A stretch of DNA of 64,000 nucleotides, taken from the NCBI GenBank assembly GCA_030272155.1, contig CP126200.1, forward strand, positions 5,220,001 through 5,284,000, given 5' to 3'. Shown in pieces: positions 29,681-57,043 of the stretch (its first letter is position 1; each line of letters opens with the position of its first letter). The notes below the pieces were generated by a model. It saw only the letters and a list, made by a program, of their open reading frames with translations, searched no databases and was not told the origin of the DNA. The position numbers were made by a program, and so were the translations under genes. This stretch comes from Tetradesmus obliquus (lineage: Eukaryota; Chlorophyta; Chlorophyceae; Sphaeropleales; Scenedesmaceae).

Positions 29681-29721
<41 letters not shown>

Positions 29722-30620: not shown

Positions 30621-30661
<41 letters not shown>

Positions 30662-32180
30662 AGAAGGACTGCTGTCGTTTGCAGCTGGTTGGTGCTGCTG
30701 CCCATTGAAGGCGCTCGTCGCCGCTGCAGCAAAGCCGGTGACACCAGGTGCTGCTGCTGCTGCATTGGAGGCTGACTCTCTGTCCTGTGGCTGCGTCAGC
30801 AAATCAGGATCAGCAGCAGCAGCAGCAACAACACCCGCTGTTGTAGCAGCCACACCCTGATGCCTGTCCTCCTCAGCCGCAGCAGCTGCACTGCTGCTGA
30901 TGGTGCCAGCTGGAAGAGGCCGGCTGCTGCTACGCTGCTGCAGACCCTGGGTATTGCTGCTGCTGCTGCTGTCAACACTGAAGCTGCCCATGAACATGGC
31001 TTTCAGTGCTGACACGCGCGAGCCAATGCCCCAGGAGGGTACTGCAGCTGCGTCTTGCAGCTGCTGCTGCTCCTGCTCCTGCAGCTCCTGCAGGCGCTGC
31101 TCGTGCAGGTGCAGCTGCGGCTGCTGCTGCTGCTGCTGCTGCTGCAGCTGCTGCCGTGCCTTGTGACCCCTGAAGGCTGCTTGAATCCTCGTGGCGGCTG
31201 CAGCCTCGTCAGCTGTCACAGATAGTGCCGCAGTTGTGCTAGCACCACTGCGTACACCATTCTGCTCAGTGCTCTCAGCTGCAGGGCTGGCAGTTGCATC
31301 ATCTGCGCCTCCTGTGCCTGCTGCACTAGTGCCTGCTGCGGCCCCTGCTGTGACTGCTGCTGCTGCCGCTGCTGCGCTGAGCACTGCAGCGGACAAGCCT
31401 GCATCGGCATAGCTGCTGGTGCTGCTGCTGCCCTCAACTGGCACCTCCTGCAGCTGGTCACCATCTATGCTGCTTGCTCCATCAAAGCCAGATGTTGGCG
31501 CGAGCATGGCATCCCTGCTGTCATTCTCAACATCTGCAGCGCCCCTGCTTATGACGTCGCCCACATCTGCAGCGCCCCTGCTTATGACGTCGCCCACATC
31601 TGCAGCTGCCACTTCCTCACCCACACTTAACTCGAGCCTGCTGCTGCTGGTGTCAGCCGCTGCAGCTCCAGTCAGGCCCCTGGAAGCAACTGCTGGGAGT
31701 ACCACAGCGCTGCTGTCGCTGCTGCTGCTTGCACTGCCGAGCAGCATGGCCTTCAGTACTGACACGCGCGAGCCAATGCCCCAGGAGGGTGCTGCTGCTG
31801 CTGCTGCTGTTGCAGCCGCATCATGCTCCGCCGCGGCGTCAGCAGCTGCCTGTTGCTGCCGCTGCTGCTGCTGCTCCCGCTGCTGCAGCAGCAGTTGCCT
31901 TGCCTGGTAGCGGCGGAAGGCTGCTTGGATGATCTTTGTAGCTGCTGCTGCCTCATCCTTAGTTGCGTCAACTGCAGCTGCAGCTACACCAGCACTGCTT
32001 GGGTGATCATTTTGCAGGCTGCTGTGCCCACCAGCGTCTGGAGCTGCTGCTGTTGCTGCTGCTGCTGCTGTGGTGACATCTGACTCCAGATCAACTTCCA
32101 CAAAGGGTGCGGCAACTGCAGCGTCAGTGCTGCTTGCTGCATCATCAGCTTGAAGCGACGCACCTGCAGCTGCGGCAGTA

Positions 32181-32211
<31 letters not shown>

Positions 32212-33016
32212 CTGGCTCTCCGTGCATGGCTCTTGCTGACCTGCTGCTGCTGCTGCTGCTGTCAATGCTGGTGCTGCCTAGCAGCATGGCCTTCAGTGCT
32301 GACACGCGCGAGCCAATGCCCCAAGAAGGCGCTGCTGCTGCTGCTGCTGCTGCTGCATCCACATCTGCACTGCTGGGAGCAGCAGCTGCTGCAGTACATA
32401 CACCACCAGCAGCAGCAGCAGCAGCATTTTCAGCAGCATCTGCTGCGGCTGCGCTGCTGCTGGCAGCATCACCTCCTTCAAGGTTGTTACGGCTGCTGCC
32501 GCTGCTGCTGGCATACGCCACAGCATCAGCTGCCTCACTGCTACCTGCCTGTTCCGGTGCTGGCTCGATCTCTGCTACAGCAGCAGCAGCACGTGCACCA
32601 GTAGCCAAGGCATATGCCTCATCCATTGACAGAGCCCTGCTGGCGGTTAATGCAGCAGCAGCAGCAGCAGCAGCGCCTGATGATGCCTCGTACATCTGTA
32701 CCTCTGCTGCTACTGCTGAATCAGCAGGAGCCACATGAGCAGCAGCAAAAGCTTCCTCAAAGCTCGGGCCACGGTCAGCGGCAGCTGCAGCTGCATCACT
32801 GCTTACTGCTGGCACAGCAGCCGTATCTGCCGGTACTGCTGCTGCATCGTCACCTGCCTCATCTGCTGCTGCCGCTGCATCTCCAGCAGCAGCTAACACC
32901 TCAGCACCAGCGCTGCTGCTGCTGTCGCTCTCGCTGCTGCTGTCGCTATCCATCGCAGTGCGTCGGCGCCATGAGGCCCTCGTGTAGAGGATGCGCTCTG
33001 CAGGGGGGCTCCCGCC

Positions 33017-33052
<36 letters not shown>

Positions 33053-34315
33053 AGATGTTTCTGTCTGATCTTCAGGCATACCAGCAGTCGCTGCTGCTGC
33101 CACTGCTGCTGCAGTGCCTGCCGCAAGGACGGCAGTAGTTGGTAAGCCACGCGCATTGTCATCTGGTGCGTCAGTTGAAGGTGCTGCTGCTTCTGTCTGT
33201 GCAGCAGAGGCTGCAAGGGCATCCGGCTTGGCCCAGCTGCTGCTGCTGCCCAGCAGCATGGCCTTCAGTGCTGATACGCGCGAGCCAATGCCCCAGGACT
33301 CCCCAGAAGCAGCAGCAGACTGCTGCAGCTGCTGCTGCTCCTGCTCCTGGAGCTGCTGCAGGCGCTGCTCGTGCAGGTGCAGCTGCGGCTGCTGCTGCTG
33401 TTGCTGCTGCAGCTGCTGCCGTGACTTGTGGCCCCTGAAAGCTGCCTGAATCCTTGTGGCAGCTGCAGCCTCTTCAGCTGTAGCTGCCTCTGGTAAAGTT
33501 GGCAGTCCAGCTTGAGCTGCAGCTGCAGCATCAGCAGAGGCACTGCTGCTGCTGCTGCCGCTTGACAGCTGTGCAGAACGGGGGCTGGGCATAGCCCTCA
33601 CTCCCGGGACAGATGCCGCAACAGCAGCCAGAGCCTCGAGCGACGCCTTGGCAGCAGCAACAGACGACTGCCGCACCAGCGATGGCCCGCGCGGGCTGTC
33701 TGCTGCTGCTGCTGTTGCTGCGGCAGCGTCACCGCTGAGGTTGCGGCTCAGCACACTGTGCAATGCAGCAACCTGGCTGCTAGTGCGGCTGGGAGCTGGG
33801 CTTGACTCATTGCTGCCGCTAATGCTGCTGTAGCGAGGGCTACCAAACTGCCTGAGCCTGTCGCTGCGAAGCTTGGCTGAGGCTTCCGTGGTGGCTGCAA
33901 GCGTTAGCAGCGACGCCTTGGCTGCTGCAAACGCTGACTGTGCCGCTGCTGCATCTGCGTCAGCGTCTGCTGCTGCTGCTGGGACGCGGCCAGCACTCAG
34001 CTGCGTGTTGAGCCTCCTAGCAGCACTGCTGCTGCCAGATGCTGCTGCTGCTGCTGCTGGCGCCTCTGCTGGTTCATACAGTGCGGCAAGCCTGCCGACG
34101 GCCCTGCTGTCGGTGCCAGCTGCATCACCGGCTGCTGCTGGCGGCTGAAGGTATGCTGGCAGGGATGTGTTACAGCCTAGTGGCTGCCTTGTCACAACAC
34201 CAGCATCAACAGACACTAGACCACCGCCATCAGCAGCAGTGCCAGAAGCAGCTGCTGCCTCAAGGCTGAAACGGCTCGGCCCAGCAGCACCTGCTGCAGA
34301 CTGCTGAGCAGCAGT

Positions 34316-34346
<31 letters not shown>

Positions 34347-34955
34347 GCGCGTGCGCTGCCGTCAGATGCTGCTCCATCAAGCGATGACCTGGCAGAGTCA
34401 ATCTCTTGCCACGCCTCAGGAGGCAATGCAGCAGTGACACCTGCTGCTACAGCCGGCTTCATCAGAGGCTTGTGGGCAGTGCGGCTGCAGTAGCTGCTGC
34501 TGATACCCTCCAGCGCTGCTGCAGCTGCTGCTGCACGTGAGGCGCTTACCCAGCTCGGGGAGGTGGGGTCGGAGTTTGCTGCTGCTGCTGTGCTGGCTAG
34601 GTGCCTGGATGCGTCAATGCTACGCCTGCTGCTGCTGCTGCTGCTGCCGCCGCCGTCAGTGCTGCGCCTGGCAGCTGCTGCGTCGCCACTACTGGCAGAT
34701 ACAAAGGCAGCAGCAGCAGGCGCCGCAGCGGTGCGGCTGCCAGCAGCAGATGAGGCGGTGTCGTCCATGTCTGCTGTGTCTGCTGCAGTGCCCCATGCAT
34801 CAAAGCTCAGCACCGCTGCACTTGCGTGATCCAGATCTGCCTCTGGTCCATTTGCAGCAGCAGGCCAGCTGCTGACATCAGCGTCATCTTGCAGCTGATC
34901 CTCTGCTGCTGCTGCTGCTGCTGCTGGTAAGCCAGCGCCAGCAGCTGTGAAGAGA

Positions 34956-34988
<33 letters not shown>

Positions 34989-35377
34989 TCATCCTCAGCA
35001 GTGTACTCAAATGCAGGCAGTCCGCCTGCTGCATCTGCAGCAACTACCCCATTGCCATGCCCGCGTGCACGTGCCACGGCTGCAGCATATGCTGCGCCAA
35101 CAACACTGCCCTCAGCTGCATTAGTTTCTGCATTTGCGCGTGCGCGAGCCACTGCAGCAGCATATGCTGCTGCAGCTGCACTGTCCTCGTCTGCATGCAT
35201 TGCATCTGCACGTGCGCGGGCCACTGCGGCAGCATACGCTGCGCTAGCCACATCTGCCTCAGCTGTGTCTGCTGCTTCTGGCCATGGCCCTGCTGCTGCT
35301 TGGCTTGCATCACCGGCAATGAGATCAAGTGCAGCAGCATCTCTGCTGTAGCTTGAGCGGCTGCTGGCTGCCGCAAG

Positions 35378-35415
<38 letters not shown>

Positions 35416-36202
35416 CCGCAGTCGTCGTGGGTGGCGAGCCACCTCTGTCAGCTGCAGCGCCCTGGTCAGCTGTTGCATCAATGTCAGCTGCTGCAGCCTG
35501 CTCAGCTGCAGCACCTTCCACCTGCACATCACTGCTGCTTGACATCAAGCTGCCTGCCCTAGCTAGCAGCATGGCCTTCAGTGCTGACACGCGCGAGCCA
35601 ATGCCCCAGGTCAGTGCAGCAGCGTCATCTTCTGTGGTGATTACTGTCGTGGTGGCTGCTGCCTCGTCTGACTCAGCCTGGCTGCCAAGCTGGTGCTGCT
35701 GCTGCAGCTGCTGCCGCACCCGGTGGCCCCTGAATACAGCCTGGATTTTGGCAGCTGCTGCTTCTTGCGCAAACTGCTGCTGCTGCTCTCGCTGCTGCTG
35801 CTGCAGCTGCTGCCGCACCCGGTGGCCCCTGAAGGTTGCTTGAATCTTTGCAGCTGCTGCTTCTTGTGCATCTTGTTGCTGCTGCTGCAGCTGCTGGCGC
35901 ACTCGATGACCCCTGAAGGTTGCTTGAATCTTGGCAGCAGCTGCATCCTGCTGCTGCTGCCGTTCCTGCTGCAGCTGCTGCCGCACCCTTTGCCCTTTGT
36001 AGACAGCCTGTATCTTGACAGCTGCTGCATGCTGCTGCAGCCGCTGCTGCTGCAGCTGCTGCCGCACCCGGTGGCCCTTGTAGGCAGCTTGCAGCTTTGT
36101 GGCTGCTGCTTCTTGCTGCTGCTGTTGCATCCGCTGCTGCTGCACCTGCTGGCGTACGCGATGACCCCTGAAGGTTGCTTGGATCTTAGCAGCAGCTGCA
36201 TC

Positions 36203-36235
<33 letters not shown>

Positions 36236-37279
36236 CAGCTGCTGGCGCTGGCGGTGGCCCGTGTAAGCAGCCTGAATCTTAGCGGCTGCTGCTTCCTGCT
36301 GCTGCAGCTGCTGCTGCTGCTGCTGCTGCTGCTTCAGCTGCTGGCGCAGCTGATGACCCCTGTAAGCAGCCTGAATCTTAGCGGCTGCTGCTTCTTGCTG
36401 CTGCTGCTTCAGCTGCTGGCGCAGCTGATGACCCCTGTAAGCAGCCTGAATCTTAGCGGCTGCTGCTTCTTGCTGCTGCTGCTTCAGCTGCTGGCGCAGC
36501 TGATGACCCCTGTAAGCAGCCTGAATCTTAGCGGCTGCTGCTTCTTGCTGCTGCTGCTTCAGCTGCTGGCGCAGCTGATGACCCCTGTAAGCAGCCTGGA
36601 TCCTCACTGCAGCTGCCTCATCTTCTGCGGGACCAGTCTCAGCGCCATCTGTTGCTGCTGCTGCTGTCATGCCTGCGGCTGTAGCTGCTCCGCCAAGTGC
36701 AGCTGCTGCCAGCAGCGCGGCTGAGCTGCTGTCCCTTTGAGCCTCCTCGAAGCTGCTTGCAGGGTACATCTGCTCATCAGACAGGCTGCTTCCAGCATAA
36801 GCAGCAGCAGCAGCAGCTTGTGTGCCAGCTTCAGCTGCATCTGGGTAGCTGCTGGCTGGGTACATCTGATCACCAGCAGCAGCCCCAGCAGCAGCATCGT
36901 GTTCTGCTGCTGCTGGCCACTCCACACCCTCTGCACTGCCAAGGCCAGTGCCAGGGTATGCTGCTGCTGCTGCCAAGCCGGCAATGTCAGCATCAAAATG
37001 CGCATGTGGGTAGCTGCTGCTGCTGCTGCTGTTGGGGGCTGTGCCCAAGGCAGCTGCTGAGTCAGCAGTGCCATCTGCTGCTGCAGGCCACTCTACTCTG
37101 TCTGCAGCGCTGATGCAAATTTCTGGGTAGCTTACTGCCTCAGGTGCCGGCGTAGACGCCAGAGTGCTGAGTGTAGATTGCAGAGGCGGCTGCTGCTGCT
37201 GCTGCTGCTGCTTTGCTGCACGGCGTTGCACCCTGGCTTGCCGGCGCTCGCCACGTGCATGCGAAGCAAACATGTGACC
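29111..37279 (-). other. Giant gene last exon 'D', IQ motifs and WGIGSRVSALKAM repeats
   Basis: This 2722-codon exon ends in TGA at 29113-29111. Eleven IQ motifs (AAKIQAAYRGHQLRQQL type, fitting IQxxxRGxxxR) stand in tandem at about 36610-35690, separated by poly-Gln. Three more lie near 33465-33405, 31940-31890 and 31190-31130. Five copies of WGIGSRVSALKAM(L/F)xx occur near 35610-35565, 33297-33250, 32327-32280, 31786-31740 and 31035-30985; four of them follow an IQ motif. Three YAAAVARARA repeats lie near 35260-35060. The rest is Ala/Ser/Gln-rich and presumably disordered, with a final GMVSYLFGGLRAKQ segment and an acidic tail. Confidence 0.82.
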
Positions 37280-40200
37280 CTGCAGGACACAGCGCAAGCA
37301 GAAATGTACATTTGCACAATTTGGTCGCTACCGCTACAATGGCCTTCAGAAAGCACGCATTGCAGCTTAGTGCGCTGTGCAGCGTGTCACACACAAAAGC
37401 CGCTGCTGCGTCTGCTGCTGGCAGGCATTGATGGGGAGGCAGTATTGCTGCAGAAGCATGCACGGCTTACCCGCGTCATCTGATCCCAGTCGTATGTCGG
37501 CGTGTCAATGCTGCTGCTGCTCGTATCCGAAGCTGCACCGTCGCCGGCCACTGCTGCAGTAGCTGGCTGTGCTGCCTCTGGCGCTGCTGCTGCTGCTGCT
37601 GCTGCCAATGCTGGTAACTTCCTCCTGCCAGCGAAAAGCATGCCAAACAGCGAAGCACCAGCTGCAGCAGGTGCAGCAGCAGCAGCCACGGTTCTGGCAC
37701 CACCTGCCTGCCTTGACGCAGCTGTCGCAGGGGTGGGCAGTGCAGTGCTCACTGCTGCTGCTGTTGCTGCTGCCGGGCCCTGCTTTGCTGCCCTGCGCTC
37801 CACCCTGGCTTGGCGCCATTCGCCACGCGCGTGTGAGGCAAATACATGACCCTGCAGAGCATACATGCATGGCTGTGGTGAGTAGACAGCGCATAAACAA
37901 CCAGCAAAAATCGCTGGAGTGCGAGACCTAGTAAAGGCAGCGATGTAACCTGTCATTGCTTGATCAGACTGACATCCACCTGCTGTGCTCTGGCGGAGTC
38001 TGGGGTAATAGGTGACAGCAGCAGCAGCTGATGAGCTCACACGTTTCATGTGATATGAAAACAGCAGAGCATCATGTCAGTGATGCTGCGTGCAGAGCCT
38101 TCTGGCTGCTGTAGCACCATTCAGTCTTATGTGGCAGCAGCAGAAGCCGTGGAGCTCACCCGTGTCATGTGATCCCAGTCATACGTTGGCGACTCGATGC
38201 TGCTGCTGCTTGTGTCAGATGCCGCACCATCGCCCGCCCCTGATGCTTCTAGCTCTGCTCGCTGTGCAGCTTCAGCTACTGCTGCTGCTGTTGCTGCTGC
38301 TGCAGGTGCCTTTTTCCTGCCACCAAACAGTGCACCAAGAAGCGAAGCACCTGCTGCTGAAGGTGCAGCAGCACCCAACTTGCCTGCAGCACCTGCCTGC
38401 CTTGCTGCTGCTGCTGCTGCAGCTGATGGGGCAGGCTGTGCATTGCCTGCCGTTGCTGCTGCTGCTGCATCACCAGCAGGGGCACCTGCAGCGGCAGCTG
38501 TTTTGATCACAAGCACCTTGCGAGCTGTTGCTGCTGCTGGTGGTGCTGCTGGTGCTGCTGCTGCTGGGGTTGTGCTGCGCCCTGCAAACAGCGCAGCAAA
38601 CAGCGGCGTGCCATGAGCTGCTGCTGCTGCTGCTGGTGCTGATGCTGCTGCTGCTGCTGCTGCAGAAGCGACAGCTGCCCTTGCTGTAGCCTTCTTGCCT
38701 TTCTGCTTGGCAGGCTGCTTTGTGGGTGATGGTGCTCTGACAGCTGCTGTGGTTGCTGGTTGGGCACTAGAAGTTGCAGCACGCTGCTTCCCCTGCAGAA
38801 ACAGCAGGCAAGGCACGAGACGGAAGTGCACAACATCGGTAACATGCTTTGCAGGTGTGGGACAGCTATGTATTTTCCAAAGCATGCTCCAGCCGTTTTG
38901 CTTGCTTGAATAATCACAAAGCTGCCTGCACAGGCACTGTGGACCATGTGGCACTGGGACATGATAGCGCCAAAGACACTCTACACCCACCCAAATTGCC
39001 TCGCAAGTTTGCTGAATGAGTGGCACATTTCAGCCTCACCTGTGCAGCTAGCCGCTGCCTGATCCTAGTACCAGCTCCGCGTGGCCGCTGCTGCCGCACG
39101 CGCATTGCAAACACTGCCAGCAGCGGCAGCAGCAGCAGCAGGCCTGTGCCATGCGGGTAATACCTCTTCACTGCTGCTGCCGCTGCCTGTGCTGAGTCAC
39201 CTCCTAGCACTGCTGCTACAGCAGGCGTGCTTGCGTCGACCGCTGACACAACATATGCGTCAGCAGCAGACGCAGCAGCGATCGCCGCAGCTGCACTTGC
39301 GTCTCTCGCCGCATTGAACGATGCAGACGACTTCAGAACAGCAGCTGACGCGTAATCAGCAGCGCCGCGGCCAGCACGCCTTGCCAGATCTTGGCTGTAT
39401 GTCACATATTCCGGAGACTTTGCTGCCGCTGCTGCTGCCGCCTTCTGTGCCGCTGACAAGTACTGAGCTGCTGTGCGGTGCACAGAAGCGACATAGCCTG
39501 CTGCTGTTGCTAGGTAGCCAGATGCTGAGCGCTGTAGGGTACCCACATATGGAGCTGCAGCCTGTTGAACAGGTGCTGCATATGATGCGGCAGTGTTGAG
39601 ATAGCCAGATGCAGCTTTCTGCACAGGTGCAATGTATGGTGCTGCCGCCTGCTGCATTGGAGCCACAGCCAATGCGTACGCTGCTGCAGCAGCTGCTGCT
39701 GCTCTGCCGAGAGTGCTTGAGGGCAGCAGGCTGCGCATGCTTGACGCCTCATCAGCAGCAGCAGCAGTGTCTGATAAGTTTGGCGCGTCCGCTGGGGCTG
39801 CAGCAGCAGTTCTGTCGGCTGCAGCTGGCATGGCAGTGCTGACGTCACCATCATGTTCTTGACTGCTGCTGCTGCTGCTGCTGCCGGCAGCAGCAACTTC
39901 ATCAACCACGCTTTCTGCACTGCTGCTGTCGCCTGCAGTTGCTGCAAGTGACGCAGCAGCTTCTTTAAGCTGCCGCAGTTGCTGCTGCACACCTGCAGCA
40001 CCTGCTGCTACAGCATCACGCACTGCTGTGCTAGTGTCCGCCTCAAGTGGCAGGTCCACCACAACATGCGGCACTCCTTCAAACTGCTGCTGCTGCTGCT
40101 GCCCAATGCCCTGCAGCTGAGCCTGTGACAGCAGCAGGCCAGCGGCTCCGGCACCAGCTGCTGCTGTACCAACAGCAGCAGCATCAGGCGTGGCAGGGAT

Positions 40201-43804: not shown

Positions 43805-44896
43805 GCAGCAGCAGCAGCAGCAGCAGCAGGGCTGTCGTGCTCTGCCCAGCCGCTCAGTGACACCTGGGTGTGCACAGCAGCATGGCCCTCAGGGACATCA
43901 GCATGGTCGCCGGGCACTTCTAGCCGGGGCGGCCGCCCTGCTGCTGCTGCAAAGGCCACCTCTGCTTCTGCTGCTGGCACAGTCACAACATGATCATTGC
44001 TGTCCCAAGGAGCCGGCGCGGCTGCTGCTGCAGTGGCGCTGCCGTACCGTGAAGTGCTGTCTCCGCTCCGCTCTGCGAATGGCGACAGCGGCGGGGAGCT
44101 AGGTGTAGCTGCGTCGCTGGTTGGAGCAGTGCTGCTGATGCCAGCACTGGCACTTCCATCAAGCTTATTGGTGTGTTGCCGCTGCCCTGGGGGAGCTGAA
44201 GCCGGCCGCAGCCGCGCTGCTTCGTTAGCTGCTGCTGCAGCAGCAGTCGAGAGTGCTGCAGCAGCAGCAGCGCTGCCGCCGCCCTTGCCGCCGCCTGCTG
44301 TGTAAGAAGCAGACTCTGGCCGGATGGAGGGACTGCGGCTGCCAGTGGGGCTCGCCCTCACCCAGCTGCTGCTGCCCCTGCTGCTGTCTGCTGCTGCTGC
44401 TGCTGCTGCTGTGTTTGCAGCGCTGCCAGCAGCAGCAGCAGCTGGGAATGCTGTCCATCCCTCTGGCAGCCCCTCTGCCCTTGGAGAGCCGTCAGCAGCA
44501 GCAAATGGTGATCTGGCACCAGCCGGCAGCGGCGATGCTGCACCTGCTGCTACTGCTGCATACTCTCCGTCTGTTGAAACCCCGGACACCGCTGAGTCAG
44601 CTTCACTGACACGGGGTGTCCGGTTCGGGGTGCGCCTGCTGCTCCTGCTCTTGCTGCTTTTGCTGCGCGAGCCGCGCTTGCTTGTCGCTGCTGCAGCAGC
44701 TGCTGCTGCAATGCTGGTGCGGATGCTGCTGATGCCTGCAGGACAGCTGGCAGTCAGCGGGCTGCCGTTTGAATTCAAAGCTGGCTGGCCGCTGGGTTCT
44801 AGCAGGGTTCTGCCATCAGGGCCCAGCTGGAGGGGTCTGCCGGTTGTGGGTGACACCAGCATTGCGCCAGTGTCAAGCTCAATCAGGTTGCCTGCA

Positions 44897-44934
<38 letters not shown>

Positions 44935-45877
44935 GATGGAATGACAGGAGGATGAGTGGTGTTGTCCTGTTGAACAGCATGTATAGTGTGGTGCAGTCGG
45001 CTTGTCAGCAGCCCACGAGCACCACCCCATCACCAATAATGTTCTGCTGCCACACACACATTAACCCAGTACACTAAAAACCTGGTTTGACCAACAGTTG
45101 ACTGCCATTTGACGCTTTGTTGACCAAAACATATTTTATCGTTTGACCACTCATGATCACCTGCTGGTGACAGCCCCAGCGCAGCGCCGCTTGGTGACAG
45201 CAGCGGCCGGCCACTCGCAGTGAGCAGCTTGGCCTTGTCAGCCCCAAGCCGCAGCGCGGAGCCGTCAGGGCCCAGCAGCAGCCGGCCGTCACGGCCCACA
45301 GCAGGCCTTGCCACAACGCCAATCGAGGGCCTGTTTTATGTTTTGAGTTGAAGGGAGGCGGCAAGAGAAAAGGCGCAAAGGCAGGATGTGAGCACATGCG
45401 GCAAGGCAGAAAGTTCAGCTTCTATCTGATGTGTTGCTAGCAATCGAGCGTAGAAAACATCAGCAGCGCGGAGCCAACATGGCCCAGCAGCAGCAGCAGC
45501 CTGTCAGAGCCCACAGCAGGCCTTGCCACAACACCAATGGAGGGCCTGGAGTTGGAAGAGCAGCGGCACGGTGCCAGCACATGCGCAAGGCAGGAATATC
45601 AGAGACTGTTTGGATGTGTTGCCGGCACGCACATGTGGAAAACATGCTGTGTGTTTTTGACAGATGTTGCACAGCACGATTGCCTACATCGCATGGCGCA
45701 AGCCACACACGAGAGTGTTGCAGACACAGGGCTTGTAACCACAGTTGCATTTGAGCCCCGCAGTCCACTCACGTGAGGGGCCGCCCGCTGCTGGTCAGCA
45801 CGGGCCTCCCGTCAGGGCCCGTGAAGCACTTGCCATCAACCGACAGCTGCAGCGGCTGGCCACTGGGGCCTGCAGCA

Positions 45878-45910
<33 letters not shown>

Positions 45911-46929
45911 CAAGTCAGATTTCTTGTCACTGTGGCAATAAGCACACACTTTCATTCTGATACTCTCAGCTGATTAATAAACACTAAAACACATCCTCCT
46001 GCACAGCTCAACATACCGGCCACATGTGCAGCACCACACTCACCAATTAATGGTGCCGTGCCAGGCATTGCCACACACCAACATTCAAGGTTTAATCGTG
46101 ATTACACACAAAAATTCAGTACAAGAATCGGACTCACCGGTGAGTGGTGCCCTGCCAGGCATTGCCACCAGCCTGCCATACGCATCCAGAGCCAGCGGCT
46201 CCCCTTGATACCCTAAGACCCCACACACCCACTCTGACATGCACCAATTACCCAATGCAAAGTGGATTCAGGACTCACCGGTGAGTGGTGCCCTGCCAGG
46301 CACTGTCACCAGCCGGCCATACGCATCCAGGGCCAGCGGCTCCCCCTGGGGGCCCAGCAGCGGCAGCAGCCCCCCAAGCCCCAGCAGTGCAGCAGCAGCC
46401 TTCACAGCAGCCTCAACTCGCTCCCCAACAGCACCCTCACTGCTGCTGCTGCTGCTGGATTCGGAATCGGCTGCACCCCGAGCAACAGCAGCAGCAGCAG
46501 CCGCCGTGAGATCCTGCACTGCCTGATCTTCAGACACTGTCCTCAGACCTCCCGGTAGACTCGCCGAGGAGCCTCCAGCAAGCGCTGCCCTGTCTAACAC
46601 GCCCTGGCTAGACGGCGTCCGCTGCAGCGTGAAGGAGCCAGTAATGCCCGTAAGGGAGTTTGTGCGTGACGGGCCTCCACCCACAACAGCAGCCAAATTG
46701 CCAAGGTGGCCGGCTGACAGCGTGCGCAGCAGCGTGCCGATGTTGCTGCTGCCAATGCGGTGTAGTGAGCGTGCAGCAGCGCCAGCCATGAGGGCGGTTG
46801 CATTGGTGAGGCCTGCTGCGTTGGCGGTGCCGCCTTCGCCGGCTGCTGCTGCTGTGCTGCTGCTGTAGAGGCGGCCTCCGTAGCCCATCAGCAGCGGGCG
46901 CGAGTCGGGCCCCTGCGGGGATAGGCAGC

Positions 46930-46980
<51 letters not shown>

Positions 46981-49900
46981 GCGGCAGCAGCAGCAGTGTG
47001 GGCAATGTGCCTCCTGCAAGTGTGCTTGTAAGCCCATCAGCAACGGGCGAGGGTCGGGGCCCTGCGGGAATGATGCCACACATAAAGAAAGAATGAGAAG
47101 CAGCAGCCACATGTACCGGCCGGATGCAGCATGGCGGACTGCATGTGCAACGCGCTGCAAGCATGATTGTTGCTGTTGCTGTTGCTGGGTTGTACACGAC
47201 TGCACGCTGCGCACATCTATCAATACAGGCAAGCTGTAGTGGTACATTGGCTTCGTCACAGTGCACAGCTTGGCGTAGACCCTGTCCGCAATGTTGCAGC
47301 AGCAGCAGCTCACCACCAGCAGCTTGCCCCTTGCGCTGAACACAGGGCGGCTCTTGGCAAGGGACACCTGGGAGGGGCGGCCATCAGCACCCAGGGCAGG
47401 CCGGCCGTCTGCAGCAAGCAGACGTAGCAGCAACCTCAGTAAACAGTCAGCAGATACCAAGGTGCCTCCTTTAGCTGGAGAATTCCCTACACACGCTTCT
47501 TGCTAATCTCCTTTGTTAATCTCCTTTGATTCATTAGCATGCCAACAGCGTTTTCCTCTTCTTGCATGAGCGCCTGCCATCCGTGAACCCTGGACTCACA
47601 ATGCCCATCCCTATGAGAGAGAATAGTTATGGACATCCTTATGAGAGCATAGTTGCATGTGGGTCCTGGTGCATACGAGGGTCCTGCATGCCCATACCTC
47701 ACTCCCCTCGGTCCACCAGGCTGCGCCCATCCTTCCCAAGGAACAGGAGGTCGCCGTCGCGCCCCACCAGCGGCCTGAAAGTCAAGACCTAGAACCTATA
47801 TCCCCAATCCCTAAACCCAGCACACCCATCTCTCACTCACCTCGGTCAACCAGGCTCTTGCCATCCTTCCCAAGGAACAAAAAGTCGCCGTCGCGCCCCA
47901 CCAGCGGCCGCCCGTCAGCCGTGAGCAGTGTGCAGTTGGGGCCCAGCGCCAGCGCCTGGCCCTGTTGGTGGCGGCAGCGAGACAGAAACATGTACAAACA
48001 GGAGGCAGCAGAAGTAGCAACACCAAGTTAACTCTTGAAAATGTTGGGGCCCAGCGCCAGCGCCTGGCCTTGTGTGCAACGGCAGCCACACAGGAGCAGA
48101 CGGCAGCAGAACGACCGACACCGCTACTGCCGGATTGCATGCATCAACGGGCAGCAGCCTGATGACAGGCACAGCGGCTGACACTATGGACATGTGGCTG
48201 ACATATCCAACAACCTGCAGTCACCCTGCATGCTTTGCCTCAGCTCACGGCCACCTGCTGAGCTGCTGACCAGCCGATTGAGGCAAGTTTGGCAGTAGCA
48301 TTCAAGCAAATACACACCAGTGGCCCCAGCAGCGGCAGCCCCGCCCAGCTCAGCGGCGCTTCATCATTAGGGGCCAGGGTGAGCGGGCAGCCAACAAACA
48401 TAAACACACATATACACAAACACACAAAGACGCACCTGTGGCCCCAGCAGTGGCAGCCCTGCCCAGCCCAGCAGTGCCTCATCGTCAGGGGCCAGGCTGA
48501 GCGGGCTGCCGTCAGGGCCCAGCAGCAGGGCGCCCTCAGGACTAAGAGCCAGTGGCAGGCCGGTGCCGGATGTCAGCGGGCTATTGTTGGGGCCCAGCAG
48601 CACCTGCGCAGTGGTTTAGGACGCAAAGCAGAGCGAGTCGGCAACGGCAACAACACGCGTGGTGGATAAGAAGAGGTAAGAGCTAAGACGCACTGACATC
48701 TTGCAGCTGAGACCATAAAGGTAAGAGGCAGCCACGTTCACGGGCGCCTCAGCCAGCCATGTATGCCGCTGTCTATTGTTCAACGGATTGTCAGCACGGA
48801 ACAGAAGCAGCAGCTCACCTCGAGAGGCCTCCCCCTAGGGTCACCATCAATCCACCATTCTCATCCAGCAGCAGCCACAGATAAACATTCGCCACCAATA
48901 CCAGCTGCACTTTTTTACTCACCCCAACGGGCCTTCTACCCGGGCCCACCAGCCGTACACATGCTTTTAAAACCAGGCATGTATGCATGTGCCCATTGTT
49001 CATCAGCGTGTTATCAACAGAATCAGCAGCTCACCTCCAGGGGCCTTCCACCAGGGCCCACCATCATCCCTCCATCCTCATCCAGCAGCACCGCCCCACT
49101 GGCCCCACCCAGCGCCAGCCGCTCACCTCAATAGGCCTTCCCGCAGGGCCCACTATCTGCCCGCATTCCTCCATTGATCAGCCGTCTGTGCATCTGCCTA
49201 CTATAACAGGCTATTACCTACACTATCAGCAGCGCACCTCCAGGGGCCTTCCACCCGGGCCCAGCATGGGCAGTCCATCCTCATCCAGAAGCACATTGCC
49301 ACTGGCCCCTCCCAGCACCAGCCGCAGCGGCATCCTGTCCTTCCCTTTCAGCTGCCGGCCACCTGCCACCAGCATAAACCCTGAGGCACCCTGGCCGTCC
49401 AAAACCCCAGGGGCTGGTGTAACTGGTATAACACCCAGCGGCCGGTGATCTGGCAGCAGCAGCGGCTCGCCGCCCGCTTTGATCAGGATGGGGTGGGGTG
49501 GCAGCTGCTGCGTGGGTGGGGTGATGAGGTCTAGTAGTGAGTCTGTTGAGATCTGGCCGTGCTGCAGCGCCAGCAGCAGCAGTGCTGCCAGGCAGCCGAG
49601 GACTAGCAGTGGCAGCAGCAGCAGCAGGAGCTTGATGGTCTGGCAGGGGGGGGGGGGGGGGGCGGCAGAGTGGCGGGGGGCAAGACGTGCAGCGGGAGGG
49701 GCAGCAGCAGCAGCAGCAGGCAGCGGAGGCTGTGTTTCAGTGGCTTGCTGTCAGCTGCAGGGAAGCATGAGGCTGAGGGAATGACATGCATGATGAGCTG
49801 AGAACGCACAAGCTGCACAGGCTTCAACAAACATAACTCAGCATGCAACAACTCGACAAACATGGGTACACTGTCACCAACTTCGCATGTGATTGCTGCA

Positions 49901-52900
49901 CATCATGTCATCAACAAATCAAATGACACTCACCAGGTATCCAGCTGGCCCTGCCAGGCCTATCCAGCATACCGGCAGCAGCAGCAGCAGCCCGGCAAAT
50001 GCAGCCGCACCCAGCGCCGCTGCTGCCACCAGCCCAGCCTGCTGCAGTAGATGTTCCTGCCCCTGCCGCCTGTACCGTTTTATCATTTGCCTCACATGTC
50101 GCTTCAGGCGGCCTTTTGCTGCTGCTGCCTGCAGCTGCGCTGCAACCTCCAAGGCCCGATCTGCCAGGGTTTTGCCGCGGCTCGTAGGGTTCAGCGGCCG
50201 GCCATCTGAACCCCAAACCCTGCGGCCTGTCCCCAGGCTGTCAAAACCGCCGTCGGGGCCAAGCCCTAGCTTACTCCTATCTGCAGCTAGCAATGCCTCG
50301 CCTGTGAGTGCATTTACAAGCGTGGGTTGACCACTCACTGCCGGCAGCCGTGCAGCAGCGCCTGCAGCAGCTGCTGCTGTCTGCTGCTGCCCTGGCGCCT
50401 TAAGATAAGGGAAGTCCTGAGGCACTGCTGCCAGCCCTAGATGCTCCCCTGCAGGCCCTAGCAGCGGAGAACCCTTGCCGCTGCAAGTTAGCAGCGGCCA
50501 CACTACTACGCTTGGCACTTTGCTGGAGATGCTGCCATCAGCCTGCAGCCCCAGGCGTGCTGCTGTAGCAGCCAGCAGCTGCCCCGGCTGCTGCTGCTGC
50601 TGCTGCTGCTGTGGGGTGCCAAGCAGCAGCGGCCGGCCATCACATGCCTTGAGAGGCCTGCCGTTGGCAGCCAGTGCCAGAGGATGCAGCACCCCCTTGT
50701 GTGTTGCGTGGTAGGGGTGTCCTGTATTTGATGTTATGTGGGGTTCAGGGACCAGGCCCTGGTAAGGTTTGGGGTTTGTGGCGGGATCTGCCAGCTGCAT
50801 CACGCTGCCATCAGCCGCCAGCAGCACGTGGCGCTGCATGAACATAAAAAAACACAGCACAGCACACAGCGCCAGATCACAGCAGATGGTTGTTAGGTAT
50901 AAGTTTTGCAAGCTGTGAGGCGGCAGGTTGTGCTGCAGTGCAATAATGCTTTGCCACAGCAGGACAGTATGCACTGAAGATCAAAGCAACGGCTAAAACA
51001 AGTATGATACAGCCAGCCATCGTGCATGAAGGGGATTAACTACCAGCCCAACACACCTGCACGTCCCTCAGTAGGTAGTGGTTCTCCGCATACAGCGGCC
51101 GCCCGGCAAGCAGCAGCGGCCGCTCACTGCCCCGAGTCATCGCCAGCGCCGGCGGCGGCTTGCGCGGCACTGCTGCTGCTGCTGCTGCTGCTGCTGTGCC
51201 GGCAGCCGCATAACCTGCTACAACGCTACTGGCAGCAGCAATCGAAGACCCAAAGCTTGACTGCGGGCTGAGAACGCCTGCTGCTCTGTGGCGGCCGCTG
51301 TTGCCTGGAATATCTGCTGCACTTGATGCATTGGATGCATTGTCATCATTTGTAAGATGACCTTCCAGCAGACCACTGGGCGGCCGTGTGTACATGTCAT
51401 GTGGAGCCAGCAGCACGGCGTCACTGCCATCTGTCTCTGTGTCATCGCCAGCCTGGCTGTCAGGTGGATTACTCTGGGGAGTAACCCCCTCGCGCGATGA
51501 CGACCGGCCAGACAGGGGCACGCGCGCGGCTGCCACTGCCACGGCTGCTGCTGCTGCCGCTGCTGCTGCTGCGGCCTTGGATGCTACTGCTGAACCTCGG
51601 CTAGGTGTCACCCCATCGGGTGCCTGTGCAGTGGCAGATCTGGCGGCTGCACCTGCTGCCTCATCCTGCTGCTGCTGCTGCTGCTGCTGCTGTGGCTGTT
51701 GAGCATATGGGCTGTCTGCCACTGTCTCTTCTGCACCAAAATCTGCATGGCCAGCAGCAGCAGCAGCAGCAGCCGGCATGCTACCTGCTAGCAGACCTGC
51801 ACGGGCAGCCGCCTGTGCACGTGCTGCTGCAGCCCAGGGCTCTTCTGCTGCAAACCCTGGTGGCTTTCGTGGCTGCTGCTGCTGCTGCTGCTGGGCGCAT
51901 GCTGACTCCTTGACTGCGTCCTCACCAAATGGAGCATTAGCAGCAGTGTAACTAGCCGTTGCAGTTGCGGCATTGGTGCTGTCACCAGCAGCAGCAGCGC
52001 GTGCAGCAGCCTGTGCGCGTGCTGCTGCTGCCCAGGGCTCTTCTGCTGCAAACCCTGGCGGTCTCCTGGGCTGCTGCTGCTGCTGCTGCAATGACTGGCT
52101 GTTTACTCTTGCTGTTGTATCGTCACCCTCCAATTGTGCATCAGCAGCAGCGCAACGGCCCGCAACAGGTGCAACGTCGCTGCTGTCACCAGCAGCGGCA
52201 GCACGGGCAGCAGCCTGTGCGCGTGCTGCTGCTGCCCAGGGCTCTTCTGCTGCAAACCCTGGCGGTTTTCTGGGTTGCTGCTGCTGCTGCTGGCCATAGG
52301 TGTGTGATGCCTCCTCAGCTTCAATTTCACCTACTCCAGCATTAGCAGCAGTGTAACTACCCGCTGCCGGTGCTGCATTGCTGCTGTCAGCAGCAGCAGC
52401 AGCAGCAGCTGCACGAGAGGCAGAGGGTGCACGTGCTGCTGCTGCCCAGGGCTCCTCTGCTGCGAAGCTAGGAAGCTTCTTAAGCGGCTGCTGCTGCTGC
52501 TGCTGCTGCTGCTCCTTCTTCGATCTTATCCCAAACCATATAGATCCACGCTGATCAGATGATGCATTTGTAGCACCACGCGGAGCAGCATCCGGGCTGT
52601 ATGGAACAGCGCGGTTGCTGCTGTTGCTGTGCTCAGCACCCAACTCCTGGCGGCTGGCTGAGCCACCTGCAGCATTTCCTGCTGCTGCTGTGCGAGCAGC
52701 AGCAGCCCATGGCTCTTCTTGTGCTACGCCTCGCATTAGGCCGTCCTGCTGCGGTTCAGTGTTGTTGATAACATTTGGCGCAGCTGCTGCGGCCGGCCTG
52801 GCGTCTGCAAAGCTGTTGTCGGCATGGCTGCCTGCGACTGAAGGCGAAGCAGACTGCTGAAGCTCCTCTGCAGCACAGCATGCACAGCACGCAGGAGGCA

Positions 52901-52901
52901 C
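29111..52901 (-). CDS. Giant multi-exon repeat protein, DGRPL repeats, membrane segments, 14 IQ motifs
   Basis: I joined 13 exons (minus strand, 5' to 3'): 52901-51057, 50833-49934, 49639-49238, 48603-48436, 47961-47841, 47408-47314, 46912-46279, 45869-45773, 45330-45161, 44891-39040, 38792-38160, 37851-37471 and 37279-29111. All junctions are GT-AG, every phase matches, and the sum is 19467 nt, or 6488 codons plus TGA. The order is: an Ala/Gln-rich N-terminal region with EPWAAAAR repeats (residues 1-615); DGRPL/GPDG repeats with two adjacent hydrophobic helices around residues 880-941; a 1950-residue exon with further hydrophobic segments, an amphipathic repeat and a C-terminal membrane segment; duplicated short exons; and a 2722-residue last exon with IQ and WGIGSRVSALKAM motifs. 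I recognise no whole-protein family. IQ motifs bind calmodulin, so a calcium-responsive membrane scaffold is an inference. The start codon is unresolved. Confidence 0.8.
37471..38792 (-). other. Giant gene exons B and C, duplicated symmetrical exons
   Basis: Exon B (38792-38160, 211 codons) and exon C (37851-37471, 127 codons) are both phase 0-0. Both end with DTSSSSI(E/D)(S/T)PTYDWD and contain GASL(L/F)GxLFxGR(K/R)K. Exon B has a second related PLFAALFAGR motif. Exon C opens with GHVFASHARGEWRQARVE, and the next exon (from 37279) opens with the near-identical GHMFASHARGERRQARVQ. The set therefore arose by tandem exon duplication. Either exon could be skipped without shifting the frame. Confidence 0.8.
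38032..38058 (-). repeat. Intronic echo of the exon B 3' end and donor
   Basis: ATCACATGAAACGTGTGAGCTC in the intron after exon B repeats the junction ATCACATGACACGGGTGAGCTC at 38150-38176. The copy is short and diverged. Confidence 0.6.
39040..44891 (-). other. Giant gene exon 'A', 1950 codons, membrane segments and amphipathic repeat
   Basis: The exon starts (GC|AAC CTG) with further GRPLQLGPDG repeats, then a long Ala/Ser-rich low-complexity region. Hydrophobic segments occur near 43085-42900 (two), near 42440-42350, and at the C-terminal side near 39155-39090, followed by a basic cluster (MRVRQQRPRG). Before this last segment, about 39690-39430, Tyr-anchored repeats (APYIAPVQKAASGYL, APYVGTLQRSASGYL) have Tyr spacings of 11, 7, 11, 11, 7 and 11. 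This spacing is typical of amphipathic helices that lie on membranes or lipid surfaces. Confidence 0.72.
45463..45545 (-). repeat. Intronic echo of exon E 5' end with its acceptor
   Basis: This diverged copy of the first ~85 nt of exon E (45330-45161), including a usable acceptor (CAACTCCAG|GCCCTCCATTGG), lies in the intron just upstream. The reading frame is only partly kept, and no matching donor is seen. Confidence 0.85.
46138..46206 (-). repeat. Intronic echo of exon G 3' end with its donor
   Basis: About 69 bp repeat the end of exon G (EPLALDAYGRLV and GRAPLTG) together with the donor CACCG|GTGAGTCC. A second, shorter echo of the same junction is at about 46043-46074. Both lie in the intron immediately downstream of exon G, offset by 141 bp and about 236 bp from the true end. 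Confidence 0.88.
47027..47069 (-). repeat. Intronic echo of exon G 5' end with its acceptor
   Basis: The start of exon G (GPDSRPLLMG) is repeated as GPDPRPLLMG with an acceptor (ATTCCCGCAG) in the intron upstream of exon G. Confidence 0.85.
47707..47774 (-). repeat. Intronic echo of exon I 3' half, donor GT changed to GG
   Basis: The copy reads PLVGRDGDLLFLGKDGRSLV, nearly identical to the end of exon I (47841-47961), and has its own acceptor (GACTTTCAG). The donor that is CGAG|GTGAGTGAG in exon I is CGAG|GGGAGTGAG here, so normal splicing from it should fail. Confidence 0.88.
48043..48076 (-). repeat. Intronic echo of exon I 5' end
   Basis: This short copy of the GQALALGPN coding segment stands upstream of exon I, in the intron between exons J and I. 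The sequence before it reads CACACAAG, a weak acceptor. Confidence 0.78.
48318..48391 (-). repeat. Intronic echo of exon J 3' end
   Basis: This ~74-bp copy of the end of exon J (48436-48603) reads PLTLAPNDEAPLSWAGLPLL and is followed by a GTGTGT donor-like site. It lies just downstream of exon J. Confidence 0.85.
48819..49150 (-). repeat. Four tandem echoes of the exon K 3' end and donor
   Basis: Downstream of the exon K donor (at 49238), four more exon-end and donor copies finish at 49127, 49035, 48923 and 48819, spaced about 92-112 bp apart. Each ends in a GRPLE-like sequence followed by GTGAG. The copy ending at 49035 keeps LALGGASGAVLLDEDG and GPGGRPLE. The one at 48819 has a 1-nt deletion. 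Confidence 0.82.
49238..50833 (-). other. Giant gene exons with hydrophobic hairpin (L and K)
   Basis: Exon L (50833-49934, 300 codons) carries NGRPL, DGRPLLLG, GSPLLGPAG and SDGRPL repeats, then a basic stretch (KRHVRQMIKRYRRQ) and a hydrophobic segment (LVAAAALGAAAFAGLLLLLP). Exon K (49639-49238, 134 codons) opens with a second hydrophobic segment (LLLLLLPLLVLGCLAALLLL), followed by GEPLLL, RPLG, LLDEDG and GPGGRPLE. The splice junction falls between the two hydrophobic helices. They could form a membrane hairpin or, less likely, an internal signal-like region. Confidence 0.75.
49646..49662 (+). repeat. G17 homopolymer
   Basis: Seventeen consecutive G on the plus strand, which is C17 on the coding strand, form the polypyrimidine tract directly before the exon K acceptor (TGCCAG). 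Confidence 0.9.
51057..52901 (-). other. Giant gene exon 'M', EPWAAAAR repeat domain
   Basis: This 615-codon phase-0 exon is rich in Ala and Gln. Five imperfect repeats share the core EEPWAAAARA, and four of these are preceded by poly-Gln and a KLPSF or KPPGF-type lead. They lie near 52690-52720, 52432-52480, 52210-52265, 52010-52070 and 51815-51875. The last 40 residues (RGSERPLLLAGRPLYAEN) introduce the first RPLLL/GRPL repeat that dominates the following exons. That supports its belonging to the same gene. Confidence 0.75.
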
Positions 52902-52932
52902 CTGTTGGTTCCTTGCCTGGCATCCTTGATCC

Positions 52933-53060
52933 AATGTGAGTACGCATTATGTTGCATTGTGCTGGTAATGTGTGACCTGCAACTCTCTATAGGAGGCACC
53001 TGTTGCTGGCTTGCCTGGTATCCTTGTTGAGAGCATGGTCGTGAGTATCAAAGCAAGCAT
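52933..53060. repeat. Dispersed repeat copy b and duplicated exon M acceptor
   Basis: About 52933-52996 matches the element at 19545-19620. Directly beside it, 52991-53030 repeats the acceptor region of exon M (AGGAGGCACCTGTTG, also at 52893). That leaves two acceptor-like sites 98 bp apart on the minus strand. Confidence 0.6.
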
Positions 53061-53173
53061 ACAGAAGTGGCGCGTCGTGCATGCTGCGACCATGCAGCTG
53101 GCTTGGTGCATGCGGTACACTCTGCTCGAAACGAGAGAAGCTGGATTGAGTTGAATTGCTGCTGCTCATTGAA

Positions 53174-53211
<38 letters not shown>

Positions 53212-53263
53212 GGGTCACCTTCCTCCTGCTCCTGGTGCCAGCGGCCCTTGGCTGGGATGGGCC

Positions 53264-53520
53264 CTGAGCAGAGTGAGCCCGGCAGCCGCTGCTGAGTCAG
53301 CGGCTGGGCGCCAAGCACTGCAGCAGACAAGGGAGAGCAAGTGAGCGGGATCAACATCAAAACACACACAGTTGGACAGAGGGTGTGAGAGGTGTCTGAG
53401 CAGAGTGAGCCCGGCAGCTGCTGCTGGGTGAGCGGCTGGGCGCCAAGCACTGCAACAGACAGCAGAGAAAGAAAGTGGGTGGGAGCAAGATGTACAGGGA
53501 GAGAGAGACGCGCCTGAGAG
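53264..53520. repeat. Imperfect ~132-bp tandem duplication
   Basis: The block starting CTGAGCAGAGTGAGCCCGGC occurs at 53264 and 53396. On the minus strand both copies hold VLGAQPLTQQ(R/Q)LPGSLCS after an acceptor-like TGCAG, so it may contain a further 5' exon of the giant gene. The phase does not fit a simple join, so I have not included it. Confidence 0.6.
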
Positions 53521-54109
53521 GTTTCTGAGAGGTAAACGCCTATTGTGTGTATCTGACAATTGGAATACCGAATAGTGCATCCTTTGGGCACTTGCCACAT
53601 GCTGCTCTTCTAGCCCTCTAAGAGTCTGCACGTGATCTCACAAGAAACCCACAACCAACACAGTACAGGCAGCGGTTGCGCTGTCCGTATATTGCTACAT
53701 GATTCGTGCTGTGGCAGGCGAGGAATGTCAGCGCTGGTCCTCTAGCAGCAACAATGATGTGCAGCTGCTGCCATGTGTGCAGCGCTGCTGCTGGGAGTGG
53801 TGCTGCAGCCCATGTTGCAGTGACAAGCCTCAATCGCGCTGATACGGTTCGGGTAGGTGCTCAGTTATCTCAAGACGCACCTGATGGAGTTACGCTGTAT
53901 ACTGTCGATGCGTCAGCAGCTGGGGCTTCGGTGCCTGCTGCTATTGCTTGTGTGGATGCAAGTCCCTGCACGCAGCATGCATGCAGCGTAGCATGAAACC
54001 AACCATTCTGCTTGAAAGCTAGAACGTGGTTTTGATCACAAGTATAGGAACAGGACGGCCAAACCGGAACTAGCGGGCGGGTCACTTGCCCCAAGTACCA
54101 CCAGCTCAC

Positions 54110-54253: not shown

Positions 54254-55875
54254 AGACAAACGAGCCGGTTTATTCTTGTTCAAAGTTTGTCCATCGGTGT
54301 GGTCGCAGCTTCAAGTCGCCCCAAAGATCAAGCAAGCTGGTGTGCAGGCCAGTCTGGGCATGTACAAGATCTATCACACGCACCAACACCCACCACTACC
54401 ACGCATGAAACAGCGACCTGGGCCTTGCAGCGCTGCTGCGACGTATTCGATGCACCATCAACACACACTCACCCAGGTACCTGGCAGGGTTTGGACGGCG
54501 AGCTGGTCCGAGCATCAAATGCTGCTATATACAAGCTTCATTCACATACAGAGAAATTCAGTAGCACGCAGCCTGGCTGACCTATGTTCCCGCTCACACT
54601 GGTTGCGCAGTGCAGCAGCCGTTTGCCATGCTGATAGCAAAATCCTCGAGAATAGCGTGTTGCCAGAGTACGAAGGATTGAAAATGGGGCTCAGTCGTCG
54701 CCGGTGACGTATCTTGCCGCTGAGGTGCTGCAGATGCCGGTGTCGTGGCGTAAACTTTGCACACCCACAACACATGTGACGTGCAGGCAGCAGGTGACAA
54801 GGCAGCTACAGTCAACCTGCATGCAGATAGGGCTTATTAGAGCTTCCATAAACGCAGTATATACGTCCTTTGTCACAAGCAACATGCGTGGCCTGACACA
54901 TAGCTTTGCATGCTTGGAAAACTCTGCCAACTCCATGTTAACAGCTGTTACAATGCTAGGCACAACACGTCACGTGCAAAACTGCATTGTCATGTTGTGA
55001 AGTGCCATCCTGTGCACCTGCACAAAGCAGTGAAAACCCCATGTTGAAAGCAGTGACATTGCTGACTGGAAGTGCCCCATGCCTGGAGTGCATGCTGTAA
55101 CCCAAGGATTGCCACATAGCCAGTGCAGCATGCACACCCCGACCCATGACAGTCCTCAGCGTATTCAGTAGCTAGAGCTGTGCTTCTCTCCTGTTGCAGC
55201 CGCCACGCTGCTTACTAATGTAACCTTGCACAGCACCCATAATCTCACTCAACATGCACTGCTAAATACATAAAAAAGCTGCAAAAAGTACCTACAGGCT
55301 GAGCCACAATGCACATCGACAAGCACCAGCTGCTACTGCCACTTAGTACTGACAGTGCTGCTGCGTGCTGCAGAGAAATTGCCAGCCGCTGGACATGCAA
55401 CACTTCAACTCTCAAAGCAGCAGGCGCAACACTCTTTCCTGCAACTATGTGCTGTTGCGTTGCCATGCAGCCAACTACTGACACTCTCAAGCATCAAAGA
55501 GTGGACCATCACTGCTGCATCACTCTCGCCAGCGGAGCACCGATGTTTATTGCAATCAGGGGCAGCCATGAGACATCAGTCTGGCCCAAACTAGTGCGAC
55601 CGTCTAATCAATCGTGTCCAATCGGCTGCATGTGTGCACTACACAGTACCAGTCAACACGCAGCACACATGCGCGTACGGTTCTACAGCAAGCTGACATG
55701 CATGCAGCTGTGATCACAACGTGCCAAGATCTCTGCAAACTCCCTATCAACAGCACCAATTTACAAAGACGCTCCCAACCAACGCTACCCAAAGTGATGC
55801 GCTAGCACACAACATGTTGTAACACCCTCCCATTTGCTTCAAGCTGACAACAGCACCTGCTCTGCACAAGGCTGC

Positions 55876-56218
55876 CAGGCCTTCCTAGCAACCTCAGCAC
55901 AGCCAGCATCTCCAAGCAACCTCAGCACAGACAGGATTTCCTAAGGAACCTCAGCACAGCCAGCATCTCCAAGCAACCTCAACACAGACAGGCCTTCCAA
56001 GAAACCTCAGCACAGACAGGATCACCTAAGGAACCTCAGCACAGCCAAGCCTTCCAAGAAACCTCAGCACAGACAGGATCACCTAAGGAACCTCAGCACA
56101 GCCAAGCCTTCCAAGAAACCTCAGCACAGACGGGCCTCCCAAGAAACCTCAGCACAGACATAATTCCCAAGCACCTCAGCACAGCCAAACCTCCCAAAGA
56201 AGCTCAGCACAGCCAAAA
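55876..56218. repeat. 28-29-bp minisatellite, about 12 copies
   Basis: Units of the form AACCTCAGCACAG(C/A)CAG plus a variable CCTTCCAAG-type tail repeat every 27-29 bp. Two unit types alternate, with AGCCA versus AGACA after the shared core, suggesting a higher-order dimer of about 57-58 bp. Confidence 0.88.

Positions 56219-56915: not shown

Positions 56916-57043
<128 letters not shown>

Follow-up and report, generated by a model that had tools for sequence, protein, structure and literature searches.

Partial copies of exon ends lie in the introns of a repeat-coding gene of Tetradesmus obliquus and recur across a sample of its genome

We describe partial copies of exon ends, here called echoes, in the introns of a minus-strand gene of the green alga Tetradesmus obliquus. 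The gene lies within a 64,000-nt stretch of DNA (the window; positions 5,220,001 to 5,284,000 of CP126200.1, assembly GCA_030272155.1), which is part of contig C10 in a genome of 104.66 Mb in 17 contigs, and its 44-51 kb part consists of many short exons encoding LLGPDGRPL-like repeats. Each of the six introns from exon B to exon J contains at least one echo, the same pattern recurs in a random sample of the genome, and echoes without a counterpart in the known protein are also found in conserved genes. Judging from sequence comparison, we consider it probable that echoes are partial exon-end copies produced when short local duplications, arising repeatedly, take in an exon-intron border, and that such duplications are common in this alga.

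For the gene model, exons were joined according to frame, phase and splice-site score. A single stop-free frame that includes no echo runs through exons B (from 49561), D, E, F, G, I and J, together with the first part of K, and because this eight-exon model stays open, the echoes are unnecessary as constitutive exons. The six introns from B to J measure 401-634 nt, about twice the median of 201 nt given by our gene finder, and the J-K intron (269 nt) holds none of the 11 duplication events found in 44-54 kb.

In this part of the gene (44.9-49.6 kb), echoes were detected by self-BLAST of 45-50 kb, are 71-94% identical to the adjoining exon end over 37-375 bp, and are all direct, none inverted (Table 1). 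A first-pass annotation of this DNA had reported exon-end echoes in at least six consecutive introns, and all seven that it listed were recovered to within a few tens of bases; the two outlying traces it placed near 38 and 53 kb likewise found partners (38009-38054 vs. 38128-38173, 83%; 52991-53026 vs. 52893-52928, 89%). Its proposal that each copy brings its splice site along holds for P1, P2, P3, P6 and the array near 49 kb, holds in weakened form for P5, and fails for P4, and several of the extra sites score about as high as the real ones, as it had suggested. An additional acceptor-type pair, absent from that list, lies at 53264-53357 and 53396-53491 (86%, 96 bp, period 132).

Table 1 Exons of the echo-free model and echoes in its introns (window positions; decimal numbers are splice-site scores)
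Feature	Start	End	Strand	Self-BLAST match	Description
Exon B	49238	49639	-		3' end LGPGGRPLE then GTGCGC; frame and phase; donor 5.7; model uses 49561-49238
Exon B 5' edge		49639	-		Provisional; AG after poly-C tract, score -3.9
Exon D	48436	48603	-		Phase 0-0
Exon E	47841	47961	-		Phase 0-1
Exon F	47314	47408	-		Phase 1-0
Exon G	46279	46912	-		Phase 0-1
Exon I	45773	45869	-		Phase 1-2
Exon J	45161	45330	-		Phase 2-1
Exon K (long), start part	44500	44891	-		Phase 1-
P1	45463	45645	-	45463-45548 vs. 45251-45333, 87%	Acceptor-type; exon J 5' end together with the greater part of the intronic portion of a head-to-tail duplication of 212 nt
P2a	46130	46212	-	46130-46207 vs. 46271-46348, 94%	Echo of exon G 3' end
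P2b	46038	46074	-		Second, shorter donor-type partial copy of exon G 3' end; donor 6.1
P3	47031	47071	-	47031-47071 vs. 46882-46922, 88%	Acceptor-type echo of exon G 5' end; acceptor 4.8 vs. real 5.5
P4	47683	47775	-	47683-47775 vs. 47817-47909, 85%	Echo of exon E 3' end; donor GT changed to GG
P5	48043	48093	-	48043-48093 vs. 47935-47985, 84%	Acceptor-type echo of exon E 5' end; acceptor weakened, -0.8 vs. 3.0
P6	48307	48392	-	48307-48392 vs. 48425-48510, 85%	Donor-type; exon D 3' end; donor 6.6 vs. 7.1
P7	48753	49237	-	48753-49122 vs. 48973-49325, 71%	Array in intron BD; diverged units of about 205-220 nt, periods 204 and 220

The echoes differ in how much of a splicing unit they retain. In P1, similarity spans most of the 212-nt period (equalled in 0 of 200 shuffles), with the intron part more diverged than the exon part. 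Within P2a, 46212-46138 would make a full 75-nt exon, in frame at phase 1-1; its acceptor is weak (0.6), its donor (6.4) equals the real one, and it could serve as an in-frame optional exon. On the side facing the exon interior P4 has gained an acceptor, TTTCAG (6.9), but the resulting exon (47774-47698) would be out of frame, and P6 and P2b have no acceptor at their inner edge. The P7 array carries four extra exon-end copies with GTGAG donors at 49127, 49035, 48923 and 48819 (scores 6.8, 6.8, 5.7 and 6.8), and its stretch 49121-49035 is an 87-nt in-frame candidate exon whose AG scores only -4.5. P3 and P5 show weaker, borderline remnants of head-to-tail duplication: flank similarity stood at 0.005 each against shuffles, and at 0.10 (P3) and 0.06 (P5) against the flanks of other events; P3 contains CAG repeats.

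This similarity is confined to short range. At a threshold of 40 bits, 44001-54000 yielded 16 matches with offsets of 40-600 nt, whereas the ranges 2000-2560 and 4000-4560 nt were empty. In 20 sampled loci the corresponding means were 5.45, 0 and 0.35 matches, with six of the distant ones coming from a single locus. Moreover, a random block of the observed lengths meets an exon border in 19% of placements, compared with 7 of 7 source blocks of the echo groups.

We then asked how frequent echoes are genome-wide, using 20 randomly drawn 10-kb loci, of which one (L007, all N) was dropped to leave 19, and a gene finder written for this work and trained on the same loci. At each predicted junction, the query comprised 20 nt of intron and no more than 60 nt of exon, and the following 500 nt were searched for matches scoring at least 40. 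An echo was present at 51 of 361 predicted splice junctions, with hits in 13 of the 19 loci, and none of 2160 control comparisons against other loci matched; since the gene finder calls some echoes exons, one duplication may count from both sides in this test. Within the window, echoes accompany 8 of 20 junctions in the reported region and 3 of 51 in the rest. Among the 57 local duplication events of the sample, 33 straddle a predicted border, 15 are exon copies and 9 are noncoding, where random placement predicts 21%, 24% and 54%, respectively. By this sample and by three serine hydroxymethyltransferase (SHMT) genes, the locus is not special. At one sampled locus (L015, 457-634), a serine is encoded by TCC in the exon and by AGT in the echo, with threonine at that position in another T. 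obliquus assembly; from these states, the echo may keep the older one.

Conserved genes allow comparison with known proteins. The three SHMT genes that we found, on C6, C8 and C11, all carry echoes. In the C6 gene, which is 99% identical to an annotated T. obliquus protein of another assembly and differs from it at three or more residues, the predicted protein has two stretches that both map onto residues 133-142 of the best solved SHMT chain; the annotated protein contains the echoed segment once, and AKTVQDSHGKLLKEW (AKSVQ here) is likewise single. Fresh tandem arrays over borders are also present: the C11 SHMT gene has a 44-bp block at an exon start five times, and a gene for a Clp protease subunit contains an array of five 118-bp units (about 98% identical) made up of RIYYWLNCPGGD and the donor, a segment that occurs once in the best solved Clp chain (7eko_L). 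A family search for Cpn60/TCP1 yielded 10 gene loci with at least three matches, of which 5 (on C4, C12, C14, C15 and C16) have neighbouring matches overlapping by at least 15 profile positions and are candidates from the match table only.

Echoes also show decay. One C8 SHMT echo has a TAG stop and a 1-nt insertion, one C11 SHMT echo a 1-nt deletion, and sampled locus L006 another 1-nt deletion. In the paralogues L022 and L041, the echo, compared by eye, has diverged like the spacer and lost its frame. L041 had been considered as an empty-site paralogue, but it shares the echo and so informs on relative decay only, not on the ancestral state; the TGA and TAG in the C11 match were also rejected as echo decay, because their position is intronic, next to the block.

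We infer that DNA is first duplicated locally and that splicing uses the original sites. A duplication, mostly with a period of 100-250 nt, would take in an exon-intron border, and the intronic copy would stay silent as long as the spliceosome uses the original site (the upstream donor or the downstream acceptor). The copy would lengthen the intron, might supply an extra splice site, and would then decay. Border duplications would be tolerated because the original site still yields the right mRNA, and through this tolerance introns would fill with exon ends.

Several observations sit poorly with this account. Our gene finder scored four echoes as exons (45459-45545, 46138-46203, 47703-47774 and 49035-49121). 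The P1 echo acceptor at 45545 scores 5.5, compared with -1.2 for the acceptor at 45330 assigned to exon J, and in-frame read-through from the echo acceptor runs into a stop, so that mis-splicing at this pair may be frequent. Purely noncoding duplications are scarcer than placement predicts (9 of 57, and 4 of 21 at 90% identity or more), a shortage that may arise partly because both copies drift and are sooner lost from view. The copies are also clipped at the splice site: 31 single-pair sample events contain 326 intron nt against 886 expected, the 13 copies at least 90% identical hold at most 12 intron nt each, and the clipping persists at 95-100% identity.

The spacers raise a related difficulty, as a plain tandem duplication would repeat the spacer. 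Among 45 events from the sample, the window and the SHMT genes, intron-side flanks were similar at p <= 0.05 in 13 (2-3 expected) and exon-side flanks in 5; on the remaining 32 intron sides similarity was not significant, leaving the spacer unlike either flank in most events, and 5 of 8 blocks at 95-100% identity lacked a significant intron-side flank. The first-pass annotation had proposed short tandem duplications over borders: the straddling stands, and some echoes appear to be remains of a longer head-to-tail duplication (the whole period is clear in P1, the Clp array and C11 SHMT), but the spacer as second half of a tandem unit is supported in a minority only.

Divergence between echo and exon likewise departs from that of a neutral copy. 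We compared 47 pairs (31 from the sample, after excluding 17 multi-copy and 9 noncoding events of the 57, plus 10 from the window and 6 hand-chosen from SHMT), keeping two pairs in which the frame used contains a stop in the real copy. Of 243 differences, 151 (62%) were synonymous, where a neutral copy should reach at most about 41%, an expectation that already allows the real exon full-rate silent change and takes its spectrum from the same differences. The excess has P ~1e-11 if differences are independent, which within one echo they strictly are not. By set, synonymous changes made up 105 of 177 differences in the sample, 25 of 42 in the window and 21 of 24 in C8 and C11 SHMT, and single echoes vary, some having purely synonymous changes and others mainly nonsynonymous ones. 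The 47 aligned pairs contain one in-frame stop, and 10 have indels. Neutral relics should show no coding bias relative to their source exons; the echoes instead seem to carry coding-like divergence followed by later decay. This bias and the clipping at the splice site are left unexplained by local duplication alone.

Both features would be jointly explained if echoes were left behind when diverged alleles of the same gene underwent exchange or repair out of register, and not by tandem slippage, a reading that we regard as possible but rather unlikely. The two copies would come from alleles A and B, whose exons differ mainly synonymously and whose introns are too different to align; only exons would be similar enough to pair, and the exchange would end at the border, leaving a truncated exon end of the second allele in the intron. 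Such exchange would additionally account for non-homologous spacers at high exon identity and for the paucity of recognisable intron-only duplications, and the residue differences in C6 SHMT between assemblies indicate that diverged T. obliquus strains exist. However, the near-identical arrays of the Clp subunit and C11 SHMT need no second allele, P1 and P7 retain intron similarity, and the exchange itself is deduced, not seen. The allele-like look of the copies could also suggest an assembly or consensus artefact such as two merged haplotypes, but this we find barely credible: the 13 contigs listed are 5-11 Mb each, and the echoes have diverged internally, a few of them containing a stop or indels; one is common to a paralogue, and five-copy arrays occur.

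The synonymous bias, and the single in-frame stop among 47 pairs, would also fit echoes that function, or did until recently, as alternative or mini exons kept under coding constraint, and the complete in-frame 46138-46212 and the mini-exon-like copies behind TGCAG at L022 fit this as well. We nevertheless hold it to be improbable, as many echoes are partial, acceptor-type ones end inside the exon without a donor, P6 and P2b lack an inner-edge acceptor, and 10 of the 47 pairs have indels; in SHMT, the gene compared, the annotated protein holds each segment once, and doubled segments should in principle break the enzyme. More improbable still is intron gain in progress by duplicated AG/GT-bearing segments, of which the first-pass annotation saw many stages in this one gene. 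Border-crossing duplication with intron gain is documented in potato RdRp (PMC4974935), and an AG does lie at the inner echo edge in P4 and within 5 nt of it in P2a. Yet no purely exonic AG/GT segment is seen to have become an intron here, the introns concerned are already there in the model without echoes, two sites at a listed score and the right phase occur together only in 46138-46212 (the AG of 49035-49121 scoring -4.5), and the pattern is genome-wide and not a series within one locus. Recurrent local duplication across borders remains the reading we favour.

We compared this pattern with known systems. The closest is the potato RdRp gene, where a border-crossing tandem duplication gave rise to a new intron whose splicing is backed by RNA-seq reads (Ma, Lan and Niu 2016, PMC4974935); as there, local duplication here crosses an existing intron-exon border and takes the acceptor along, but potato is a single case with a new intron, and here many events are spread over the genome, most adding no intron to the model. 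Near-intron pairs in Drosophila include introns from tandem duplication (PMC2891723), and in the AGGT model of Rogers, as given in PMC4974935, duplicated exonic proto-splice sites make a new intron; these cases share with ours short regional duplications of coding sequence that supply splice sites, although the AGGT model concerns an exonic segment with its own AG/GT and our blocks straddle the borders of existing introns. Large-scale change of protist intron content is also known from Introners (PMC9860276), self-copying elements that spread into many genes. A mobile-intron or Introner family was considered for the spacers and dropped, as both of the two spacers searched matched only themselves. 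Neighbouring similar exon sequences, as here, are also a feature of tandem exon duplication and mutually exclusive exons (PMC6071210). In our gene, a single echo group of the seven provides a full exon in frame with usable scores (46138-46212); 49035-49121 is in frame but has the weak AG, and the rest are missing a site or the frame. Mutually exclusive and tandem duplicated exons, by contrast, are complete exons with both splice sites.

The type of event is thus already known, and border-crossing duplication has been familiar from single genes; what appears new is its genome-wide state, as no report of genome-wide exon echoes in Tetradesmus was present among the open-licence literature matches listed. 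Border-crossing duplication would be a common condition of introns, with fresh, middle-aged and decayed copies side by side in one assembly, including in an enzyme of known protein. With echoes in ordinary housekeeping genes too, the genome looks like an archive of the origin, tolerance and decay of exon-border duplications. This opens to test how the spliceosome chooses between near-identical neighbouring sites, at what rate echoes convert to exons or introns, and how introns grow; mean intron length is given as 462 bp in T. obliquus and 230-302 bp in four other algae (PMC5966456). Gene finders may also mistake echoes for exons in this species, as ours did. Should allele exchange prove to be the source, one genome would preserve, in the form of exon echoes, a closely spaced record of exchanges that lineages underwent in the past.

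Below 44 kb, an open reading frame (ORF) at 29111-37297 is probably the 3' part of the same minus-strand gene. It encodes 2728 amino acids with 13 IQ motifs (Pfam, four ORFs of the window scanned) and tandem coding repeats of 72-255 bp; a CE2_N match on its IQ stretch looks like chance and was discarded, and the four ORFs gave one weak HTH_23 match. No homologue of the window protein, which is of low complexity, was found at E <= 1e-10 in a search that scored only candidates sharing most words.

Elsewhere in the window, 1-19000 is a satellite of about 14 copies of a 1355-bp unit, each with a short telomere-like CCTAAAC stretch. At 21695-22011, a 52-bp unit is repeated 6.1 times (98%) at the end of a predicted exon, in a gene whose end we take to be MYND-like. 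The unit carries a GT as well as an AG, and most of the array (21776-21996) is spliced out by the gene finder, making it a candidate for true intron creation by tandem duplication. The sequence at 20.1-24.4 kb has a partial, diverged paralogue at 25.2-27.3 kb, which shows no 52-bp array in the part compared (at 25.5 kb); the beginning of the neighbouring gene (20180-20355) recurs in inverted orientation at 27337-27521 (76%). Finally, an imperfect 28/57-bp minisatellite lies at 55874-56216 and a perfect (CA)63 tract at 56917-57042.

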